A stretch of 44,483 nucleotides of DNA, from contig JADFPD010000005.1 of the NCBI GenBank assembly GCA_022562475.1, positions 1 to 44,483 of the forward strand, given 5' to 3'. This DNA is from Chloroflexota bacterium. Lineage in GTDB: Bacteria > Chloroflexota > Dehalococcoidia > Lucifugimonadales > UBA3495. Made by a program: the position numbers and the translations under genes. The notes beneath the pieces were generated by a model. That model did not search any database and was not told the origin of the DNA. It saw only the letters and a program-made list of their open reading frames with translations. Below, piece after piece: positions 235 through 11,445 of this stretch (positions are counted from its first letter, which is position 1; each line of letters begins with the position of its first letter).

Positions 235-529
235 CTAGAAAAGGTCGCGGACTCTGCGGTAGGTGCGTTCGGAGCGGCGGCGGATACCTCCGATGTCAAC
301 TCGGCGCATTTCGTCGTCAATCTGGTACAGGACTCGGAACCGCCCAACGCGGAGTCTGAAAATATTTCCATCTACTTGCACCGCGCCCGCTGGGCGGCGG
401 AGTTTCGGCCAAAGCCTCAATGGCACCAAGGATCCTGGGGAAATCATTCGCGGGTATTGAGTTTAGCTCTCTCTGCACCCGGCGGCTGAGCAACCGGACT
501 TCGTAAGGTGGATTATCTGCCTCGCTCAT
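235..529 (-). pseudogene. RelE/ParE-family toxin, frameshifted
   Basis: This is a short RelE/ParE-type toxin (ribosome-dependent mRNase or gyrase poison fold) in two frames. Codons 1-48 from the ATG at 529 give YEVRLLSRRVQRELNSIPA and ILGAIEALAETPPPSG. The rest of the family pattern (DGNIFRLRVGRFRVLYQIDD and the basic [15 protein letters not shown] tail) continues in the +1 frame from about 385. The two halves join into a normal toxin of about 97 residues if one base is skipped in the G/C-rich stretch near 380-386. As written, the first frame ends in an unrelated tail. The start overlaps the upstream gene by 17 nt, as in coupled TA operons. It may be a dead toxin, a programmed +1 frameshift or a sequencing error. 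Confidence 0.75.
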
Positions 530-1103
530 AGTCCTTCAGACTGATGGCTTCGTCGCCGCTTTCCTCGGCCTCCCGCACCGTGAGCACGTCTTCTAGGTCC
601 TCTGGAGATTCCATCAGCCCTTCGAACCTTGGGAATTCTACGATCAATTCCCAGCGGTCACGAAATCCGCAGAGCAGATCCTTTAGCGGTATTCCATATT
701 TTCTGATCCCGCTGTCTAGGTCCAAATCTCGAGGAGAGCCTTTGGGCGGGGTACTGGCATATTTGTCGAAGATGATGGACGGAAATATCCAAGCGCACTT
801 CGGGTCCCCTTTTTCAAATTCAACTCCGATGATAAGGAAATTTTTGCGAGGTATAACGTGGCCCATCTGAAACCAGCGCGGGTATTTGCCACCGGTGCTC
901 CCGGCAGCCTTCACCTGAATCTCAATGACGGCGCCCTCAGCCGTCCGGACGAGCGCATCAACCCCTTCGTCAACCAGAGGAACATAAGAGACTGCGCCGC
1001 GTTTCAGCAGTTCGCCGAACACGTACAATTCTCCCCGTTCCCCAGCAATCTGTTTGTCCACCGTACCGCTACTCACCGGACTTACTCTATCTCCCTCAGC
1101 CAC
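513..1103 (-). CDS. PD-(D/E)XK nuclease-like protein with antitoxin-like C-terminal tail
   Basis: Unusual protein of 196 residues. Residues 20-70 look like a PD-(D/E)XK nuclease core: GERGELYVFGELLKRG, then an acidic residue in VDEGVDALV, then the E-x-x-x-K strand EIQVKAAG. The last 40 or so residues (EGLMESPEDLEDVLTVREAE, then ISLKDYERGR) resemble the toxin-binding tail of Phd/RelB-type antitoxins. Its stop overlaps the start of the RelE/ParE-like toxin by 17 nt, the usual antitoxin-first arrangement. The GTG start at 1103 overlaps the end of hemB by 22 nt; GTG at 1076 is a possible alternative. The nuclease fold and the antitoxin role are both pattern-based inferences. It interrupts the heme operon between hemB and hemL, so it was probably inserted. 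Confidence 0.65.
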   Translation of the reverse strand: MAEGDRVSPVSSGTVDKQIAGERGELYVFGELLKRGAVSYVPLVDEGVDALVRTAEGAVIEIQVKAAGSTGGKYPRWFQMGHVIPRKNFLIIGVEFEKGDPKCAWIFPSIIFDKYASTPPKGSPRDLDLDSGIRKYGIPLKDLLCGFRDRWELIVEFPRFEGLMESPEDLEDVLTVREAEESGDEAISLKDYERGR

Positions 1104-10527: not shown

Positions 10528-10604
10528 GGGCCTGTAGCTCAGGTGGCTAGAGCGCGGTCCTGATAAGACCGAGGTCGTTGGTTCAAGTCCATCCAGGCCC
10601 ACCA
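10528..10604 (+). tRNA. tRNA-Ile (anticodon GAT)
   Basis: Full cloverleaf with CCA encoded. The acceptor stem GGGCCTG pairs with CAGGCCC, the D-arm contains TAGCTCAGGTGG, the anticodon stem CGGTC/GACCG holds the loop CTGATAA (anticodon GAT), and the T-arm loop is GTTCAAGTC. The length is 77 nt with CCA. A strong terminator follows ten nt later. Confidence 0.97.
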
Positions 10605-10613
10605 TTCAGAAGT

Positions 10614-10645
10614 AAAAGACCGGGAACATTTTTCCCGGTCTTTTT
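10614..10645 (+). terminator. intrinsic terminator after tRNA-Ile
   Basis: A stem formed by AAAGACCGGGAA and TTCCCGGTCTTT with a five-nt loop, followed by a run of T. The complementary strand also ends in T, so it may work in both directions. Confidence 0.9.
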
Positions 10646-10720
10646 GTTTTCCGCTCGACCGGCGAAAGATCTTCGGCTAATATAGAATGAAAGAGAAAGA
10701 TGAAGGAGGATGTGAGTTTT

Positions 10721-11221
10721 ATGCTGTTTAAATTACGCGGGAATTCTATTGAAATTACAGCGGAGGCAATAGTATCCGCCGCTGTTGGTGTGCCGCCGAT
10801 ACCGCCCAACGGGCTGAACAAATATTGCGTGGGAATGGAGGGAGGCGACTACCCGATCAAACAGTTGATCAGCTTGGCGACCGGACTCCTTAGAGTCAGT
10901 TTCACTGCACAAGATGCGCACCGAATCCTCACAAAGCTCGGCTTTGAGATTGGAGAATTCGCCACCGTTGGCAGACCTGAGCCTCAACGAGGAATGGATA
11001 AGAGTGAATATCTAACATTTCCAGTATCGATCGAAAGAGATGAAGACGGATTTACGTTAGCTAGTTGCCCTCCCCTGCCGGGCTGTCATTCCCAGGGTCA
11101 CTCCCGGCCTGAGGCAATTGTCAACATAAAAGAAGCAATCCGGGGGTATCTCGCAAGCATGCAATCGCATGATGAAGCCCTTCCTGATCAGGAGTGGGTC
11201 CTTGTCGAAGTTGGCCTTTAG
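10721..11221 (+). CDS. hicB: HicB-type antitoxin with an extra N-terminal domain
   Basis: The C-terminal 60 or so residues are a HicB antitoxin partial-RNaseH-like domain: YLTFPVSIERDEDGFTLASC, PPLPGCHSQGHS, EAIVNIKEAIRGYLASM. The preceding 90 residues are a separate small domain with ITAEAIVSAA, YPIKQLISLATGL and FTAQDAHRILTKLGFEI. I have seen this pattern in other multidomain proteins but cannot name it with confidence. The start is ATG at 10721 with AAGGAGG 11 nt upstream; ATG at 10700 would add seven residues. The stop TAG overlaps by one base the GTG start of hicA. Antitoxin-first order is the less common hic layout. The antitoxin frame is intact while the toxin gene is interrupted. Confidence 0.8.
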   Translation: MLFKLRGNSIEITAEAIVSAAVGVPPIPPNGLNKYCVGMEGGDYPIKQLISLATGLLRVSFTAQDAHRILTKLGFEIGEFATVGRPEPQRGMDKSEYLTFPVSIERDEDGFTLASCPPLPGCHSQGHSRPEAIVNIKEAIRGYLASMQSHDEALPDQEWVLVEVGL

Positions 11222-11445
11222 TGGCCCGTCTCCCCGTAGTTTCTGGGGACCAATTCGTGCAGATATTGGGTCAGGTTGGGTTCATCTGAGACTATACGCA
11301 GGGCAGCCACATGATTCTCTTAAATCCAGATGGACTGCGCGTATCAGTGCCTAGACACCGGGAGCTTGGTAGAGGTTTGCTTCGGGAGCTCATCAGGGAC
11401 GCCGGTTTGACCAGAAACGAGTTTTGGGATCTTTACCGGAAATAG
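11221..11445 (+). pseudogene. hicA: HicA-type toxin with in-frame TGA
   Basis: A 74-codon HicA mRNA interferase frame, interrupted only by TGA at codon 23 (11287-11289). Before it: ARLPVVSGDQFVQILGQVGF. After it, in the same frame: QGSHMILLNPDGLRVSVPRH, then GRGLLRELIRDAGLTRNEF. The catalytic histidine of the GSH motif lies beyond the stop, so without readthrough only a 22-residue stub is made. The GTG start overlaps the hicB stop (TAGTG). The remaining sequence is well conserved, which suggests a recent nonsense change (for example CGA to TGA) or a sequencing error. TGA is a normal stop elsewhere in the window. Confidence 0.85.

Follow-up and report, generated by a model that had tools for sequence, protein, structure and literature searches.

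A conserved N-terminal domain fused to HicB in Chloroflexota resembles the head of ScoMcrA and recurs in VapB-like and restriction-type proteins

A HicB antitoxin encoded in a metagenome-assembled Chloroflexota genome (166 contigs; completeness 78%, contamination 5%) carries, ahead of its HicB part, an additional N-terminal domain. The fusion is real and conserved, and the domain also heads or accompanies proteins of several other kinds. We propose a regulatory role for it, whereas the broken hicA toxin gene beside it looks ordinary. The locus lies in a stretch of 44,483 nucleotides, hereafter the window. HicB antitoxins normally repress their operon through a C-terminal HTH or RHH and mask the histidine of HicA, as the available portion of PMC11594946 describes. 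For small HicB proteins that have no recognizable DNA-binding domain, operon control is treated as an open question in the accessible part of PMC10865869.

The window encodes a fused HicB ahead of an interrupted hicA frame

The features of the locus are as follows.

10528..10604, plus strand: tRNA-Ile(GAT) gene, just upstream
10614..10644, plus strand: terminator-like hairpin in the interval between the tRNA gene and hicB
10684..10713, plus strand: leader segment with weak 3-base periodicity (13/27 matches, not significant on its own)
10703..10709, plus strand: ribosome-binding-site-like AAGGAGG, found by eye
10721..11221, plus strand: hicB fusion gene, ATG start, TAG stop included, 166 aa
10721..10960, plus strand: N-terminal domain, residues 1-80, SCO5918-like and ScoMcrA-head-like, order bb-a-bb-aa-b (AlphaFold2 model, Foldseek, VIA-align, and dN/dS)
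10961..11008, plus strand: variable linker, residues 81-96 (pLDDT <50 over residues 83-96; median dN/dS 0.79)
11009..11218, plus strand: HicB domain (partial RNase H fold), residues 97-166 (PF15919; fold search led by PDB HicB chains)
11221..11445, plus strand: hicA frame, interrupted (PF07927 matched over the whole model)
11287..11289, plus strand: in-frame TGA, hicA codon 23 (W, R, or L at the same place in relatives)
11302..11310, plus strand: GSH motif of HicA, codons 28-30, 3' of the stop (role of the histidine per the available portion of PMC11594946)

The start codon at 10721 was preferred over an in-frame ATG at 10700 because of the AAGGAGG at 10703-10709. HicB_lk_antitox (PF15919) is the only Pfam match in the protein (residues 100-157, E 2.6e-8, 34.5 bits where the cut-off is 27), and PDB HicB chains top the Foldseek search with the window HicB. 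The protein ends with its HicB domain, and Pfam matched no C-terminal HTH or RHH. The hicA frame (74 codons, from GTG at 11221 to TAG at 11445) starts on the last base of the hicB stop codon, so that the genes overlap by one base, and holds a single in-frame stop, five codons before GSH. With X at that stop, its translation matches the full length of the HicA_toxin model (PF07927) at E 6.7e-14 and 52 bits, and a whole-genome HMM search reported the same hicA place with one TGA inside. The original prediction, a HicB fusion followed by a TGA-stopped hicA at 10721-11445, is upheld by ORF reading and Pfam in its ORF, HicB match, and HicA match; frame reading and the HMM likewise bear out its description of hicA as perfect over 74 codons save for TGA codon 23, before GSH. 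Of the features that define HicAB, the window has the partial RNase H domain in HicB and the overlapping hicA and hicB genes, and it lacks an intact HicA with the active-site histidine.

The N-terminal domain is under purifying selection and resembles the ScoMcrA head

Pfam gave no match to the first 91 residues of the window HicB and, for the other 17 sequences of the domain alignment, nothing beyond scattered single matches. NCBIfam returned only SCO5918_fam (NF038312) for the window HicB, at a sub-threshold score (E 4e-4, 20 bits where 60 are required); the same model matches 17/18 domain sequences (best E 7.8e-13). The named family differs in being, on the plasmids examined, a stand-alone Streptomyces hypothetical family.

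An AlphaFold2 model of the 91 residues, built from three sequences (window, L002, and L003), reached pLDDT 82 and pTM 0.73 with the order bb-a-bb-aa-b. Among the PDB entries returned by the fold searches, Foldseek gave a sole notable match, residues 4-95 of ScoMcrA (5zmm; prob 0.99, E 0.059), and VIA-align superposed the model on this head over 63 residues at 2.8 A and 27% identity with Z 6.9, the next entry reaching Z 2.1. A sequence profile of the domain matched no chain among the PDB sequences. Homology to the ScoMcrA head is likely yet unproved, since a Z <8 may mean a common arrangement and no more and the profile had no PDB match. In ScoMcrA, the head precedes SBD-SRA-HNH; according to the available part of PMC6224610, it is a domain of unknown function, and it is the SBD that binds PT-DNA. 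The name "head" is also used in the accessible text of PMC7461809. Sequence matches to designed toroids in the PDB were discarded as repeat artifacts, each single stretch having E >25.

Median pairwise dN/dS, taken over pairs with dS <1.5 that are not independent of one another, was 0.18 for the domain (26 pairs) versus 0.79 for the linker (34 pairs), 0.09 for HicB (21 pairs), and 0.084 for HicA (23 pairs). Purifying selection acts on the N-terminal domain, and the reservation that this segment might be poorly conserved does not apply. A 90-residue N-terminal domain outside HicB had been claimed at the outset; a separate conserved domain without a Pfam family is what we find, its folded part being nearer 80 residues in the model.

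Fused and bare forms of HicBA are intermixed

Querying with the fused protein, and with a profile built from its front part, recovered the architecture at 12 distinct loci, the window counted (the others being L002, L003, L009, L010, L061, L064, L065, L068, L069, L070, and L071; L003 equals L062 and was counted once). The named genomes among the relatives that carry the whole fusion are Chloroflexota MAGs. In 11/11 relatives hicA is open and lies directly behind the fused hicB, the intact arrangement that would lend the fusion support; the window alone is interrupted. No second copy of the N-terminal domain was found in the home genome.

The closest described layouts are found in the available part of PMC10865869 (Gerdes 2024). 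Class 2 hicBA has the same order hicB-hicA, overlapping genes, and a HicB core without HTH or RHH, and bare relatives of the window module belong to this kind. Class 2 HicB proteins are described there as 63-103 codons long with no extra domain, whereas fused HicB proteins range from 166 to 192 residues and carry the N-terminal domain. Classes 5 and 6 share both the hicBA order and the addition of an N-terminal domain, in their case Phd/YefM, which is thought to bind the operator (PMC10865869, same portion). In contrast, none of the 18 domain sequences studied here, the window included, gave a Phd/YefM Pfam match, and the model resembles the ScoMcrA head. A search of the literature outside subscription papers found no description of a HicB fusion with such an N-terminal domain.

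On a tree built from concatenated HicB and HicA residues of 24 loci, fused and bare forms are mixed, with at least 4 changes forced by the starred branches; most inner branches are weak, the window branch is long, and bare L031 and L037, in which HicA or HicB was not picked up, were left out. Because the two forms intermix, we conclude that the domain was gained or lost repeatedly. The HicB at 2724-3221 of L004 starts with another N-terminal segment, which by eye looks winged-helix-like and has a weak Penicillinase_R match (E 0.19); an intact hicA comes next.

The domain recurs in other antitoxin-like and restriction-type proteins

A search of the class gave 16 matches to the domain in 15/393 genomes, three of them fused HicB. 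Four are VapB-like proteins directly before PIN genes (L044, L050, L051, and L052), a setting like that of VapBC with a toxin other than HicA; PIN was identified by Pfam in L050, L051, and L044 (with X at its stop) and by likeness in L052, and the VapB tails were assigned by eye and position. Domain genes also stand beside a type II-like methyltransferase (L045) and beside DUF7662 (L054). L048 and L053 carry the domain after zinc-ribbon-like N termini (weak), and L055 and L056 are fragments or doubtful matches. At L046, L047, and L049, the domain makes up a small gene of its own immediately ahead of ftsA-like genes (Pfam was run on L049 only), a setting that suggests a regulator role outside toxin-antitoxin systems.

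The phylum search, which overlaps the class search, gave 22 matches in 20/400 genomes. It added eight fused loci (one being L003 again), the stand-alone domain genes L072, L073, and L079, an McrB-like protein combining the domain with EVE and AAA_5 (L074), the DUF6884-type proteins L075-L077 (Pfam was run on L075 only, which has DUF6884/DpdC-like parts), and one doubtful match (L078). Later searches of 41, 84, and 110 genomes yielded three more loci (L098, L099, and L100). In L098 and L099, the domain is joined to a DUF5678-like tail (weak matches in L099, none in L098), and L099 precedes an aspartyl-protease-like gene; the arrangement is possibly a third antitoxin-kind gene pair. On Nocardioides and Pimelobacter plasmids, the domain stands ahead of a UPF0102-like nuclease part. 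Defense proteins had been named as a place where the domain might turn up, and it is present in restriction-kind proteins (EVE-AAA McrB-like, DUF6884-type, and UPF0102-like nuclease).

Such company, together with a top fold match to the head of a type IV enzyme, could mean that the domain senses DNA that is foreign or modified; its phage or modified-DNA ligand, once bound, would free HicA and make the module a phage-defense trigger. The EVE-AAA_5 protein, the DUF6884/DpdC-like parts, the plasmid nucleases, and the methyltransferase neighbor all point this way. We regard this role as rather unlikely, since no function is assigned to the ScoMcrA head, the domain occurs in no phage record and three viral scans were empty, and the listing of tRNA genes and long ORFs beside the window locus showed a tRNA gene and ORFs of an ordinary kind, with no sign of a defense island.

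Triplet repeats precede many domain genes

Degenerate triplet repeats were noticed by eye in leaders, for example AGTAGTAGTAGTAGTAGT (L054), before any test was made. Over the 80 bases leading up to the start codon, we scored 3-base periodicity against dinucleotide shuffles, with z >1.9 counted as positive; lag 3 and the 80-base and 30-base spans were chosen after sight of the sequences. In the first set, 13/25 domain genes were positive versus 1/18 bare hicB genes and 6/95 flanking ORFs (≥180 codons, ATG start; domain-bearing genes were not purged from these, which works, if anything, against the difference). One of three loci fetched afterwards was positive, for 14/28 overall. When related leaders were grouped by hand into clusters, 8/18 were positive (p 1.5e-4 versus flanking ORFs and 0.009 versus bare hicB). 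In the first set, fused hicB alone gave p 0.11 against bare hicB, and the other domain genes gave p 0.005.

The 28 genes leave out L006, L007, L057, L059, and L074-L077 (actinobacterial plasmid genes with large fusions or a SCO5918 gene, together with genes for multidomain DUF6884 or EVE-AAA proteins), and none of these eight exceeded z 1.9. Also left out were L046 and L047 (start codon unsure) and L055, L056, and L078 (doubtful); L058 was kept. Lags 3, 6, and 9 were raised and lags 2, 5, and 8 were not; lag 4 was slightly raised. In positive loci, most periodic stretches fall in the interval from -57 to -1 relative to the start codon, and they often touch the ribosome site. The window's own leader scored z 1.3, which is not significant. 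We count the upstream periodicity as a lead that fits an autoregulator, because the idea came from the same data.

In the non-HicB set, TAG triplets on the coding strand number 25 versus 12.0 expected and CTA triplets 10 versus 5.6; since CTA is raised on the same strand too, the triplets have no clear strand bias, and these data cannot tell a DNA target from an RNA target. TRAP binds leader RNA and blocks translation. A domain acting in this manner would bind its own 5' leader RNA at the triplet repeats and block translation, not transcription, as would suit repeats so close to the start codon and ribosome site and the excess of coding-strand TAG. The raised CTA and the frequent overlap of the repeats with -10-like boxes (by eye) argue the other way, and we hold this mode to be quite improbable.

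No palindromic operator shared among the upstream regions was found. Four loci (L003, L061, L064, and L065) have in common GATATC/TATCGATA repeats, placed immediately ahead of the fused hicB, that are absent from other loci and possibly form a separate operator. GATA/TATC counts (34 versus 7.2 expected in the 12 fused loci and 17 versus 11.2 in the 18 bare ones) were dropped as a general signal, being driven mostly by these four.

An autoregulatory role is proposed for the domain

From the triplet repeats upstream of domain genes (14/28 versus 1/18 bare hicB and 6/95 flanking ORFs), we infer an autoregulatory nucleic-acid-binding domain. We lean, without great confidence, towards the following reading: in this hicBA operon, the N-terminal domain of about 80 residues replaces the usual C-terminal HTH or RHH. 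It would bind nucleic acid in the promoter or leader of its own gene, at triplet repeats mostly ≤57 bases from the start codon, and would thereby repress the hicBA operon, and the HicB domain would mask the HicA active site, as in known HicAB. Antitoxins of the VapB type generally bind DNA through their N-terminal part. The open hicA behind the fusion in 11/11 relatives, the purifying selection on the domain, and the mixing of fused and bare forms on the tree count in favor of this reading. Two further observations favor the autoregulator: the domain heads short proteins before PIN toxins, in the place of the DNA-binding part of VapB (compared with the available part of PMC2701414), and in the L004 HicB its place is filled by the winged-helix-like segment (by eye).

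Several observations count against it. Half of the loci have no periodicity, the window among them, and 2/3 of the later loci failed; lag 4 is mildly raised and the upstream regions share no palindrome; the window's domain carries a net charge of 0; and, at the level of the proposed fold relative, PT-DNA is bound by the SBD of ScoMcrA and not by its head (PMC6224610, available part), nor did the profile match in the PDB. The near-neutral charge, and the fact that bare HicB relatives manage without the domain, would suit a domain that merely joins subunits or stabilizes the antitoxin, with no nucleic-acid role. That role is unlikely in our judgment, given that the domain also occurs alongside nucleases, a methylase, and EVE-AAA proteins, and given the 3-base periodicity ahead of its genes.

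Beyond the operon, we tentatively suggest, with more doubt than for autoregulation, that one small uncatalogued nucleic-acid-reading domain is common to type IV-like restriction proteins and to antitoxins from two or more toxin families (HicB and VapB-like), reading triplet-repeat DNA or RNA before its own genes. If true, this would add a new kind of operator-binding domain to those of antitoxins and give a function to the orphan ScoMcrA head, tying antitoxin control to a domain that the accessible part of PMC6224610 lists as of unknown function. A removable domain that is also present in VapB-like antitoxins and restriction-type proteins, and that comes with a candidate target, makes the question of operon control testable.

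The TGA in hicA is most likely ordinary inactivation or a consensus error

At the position of the stop, W occurs in 5 of the 11 fused relatives, R in another 5, L in 1, and Cys in none. The window hicA is otherwise undamaged and has 37-48/67 residues in common with each relative. Four hicA matches exceed the cut-off in the home genome, and two of these hold one TGA each; the two hicA copies are unlike, and their TGAs do not lie at the same place; the second (L081, contig 93) lies behind an intact bare hicB. In the class list, counted by hand and biased to intact genes, a stop lies inside 4 of the best-scoring 150 hicA matches, versus 2/4 at home (p 0.007).

The original prediction had set the broken toxin next to the fusion; that the breakage belongs to the fusion is not borne out: fused relatives keep hicA, and an unfused hicBA of the same genome also holds a TGA. 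For these two reasons, the breakage resembles separate toxin decay or a consensus error, and one or the other is the most likely account of the TGA. Either the lineage is losing toxins or the assembly contains errors. If the TGA is real, HicA in this genome would be cut to 22 residues, or would restart at 11311 and lack the GSH histidine, and the module, its HicA cut short, would therefore be an orphan antitoxin.

Loss of the toxin while the antitoxin is retained is an ordinary fate of toxin-antitoxin pairs, and this, with the two TGAs standing at different places in unlike copies, speaks against a metagenomic consensus error or minority allele that would leave hicA intact in cells. We still consider such an error possible, if doubtful, given the state of the assembly, the frame's freedom from other lesions and its closeness to each relative, and the greater frequency of broken toxins here (2/4 hicA and the split RelE described below) than in the class list.

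Readthrough of the TGA, whether through a recoded tRNA or by insertion of selenocysteine, appears very improbable. Tryptophan or arginine at the place in most fused relatives, a tRNA-Sec in the genome, and a hairpin 3' of the TGA would favor it; against these, 13/200 shuffles fold as well as the hairpin, and no leader or recoding RNA exceeded threshold in a search that may not cover bacterial SECIS. TGA also terminates 11/24 long ORFs of the window, and on this stop usage, with the W, R, or L of the relatives, we reject its reading as tryptophan or selenocysteine.

Other interrupted toxins occur in the window and at a VapBC-like locus

A RelE/ParE-like toxin on the minus strand of the window (235-529) is split over two frames, 317-529 and 235-447, so that the broken RelE-like toxin claimed earlier is real as sequence. 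A regex search for a RelE toxin returned nothing; an HMM search located it, with a score below its cut-off, and PF05016 matches the second piece with E 1.8e-4. The gene before it (513-1103, minus strand) encodes a protein of 196 aa with a weak PD-(D/E)XK match (PF11645, E 0.016) and, by eye, a RelB-like tail, and is perhaps another unusual antitoxin fusion. In L044, the PIN toxin at 1860-2291, beside the domain-bearing VapB-like antitoxin, is interrupted by a TAA.
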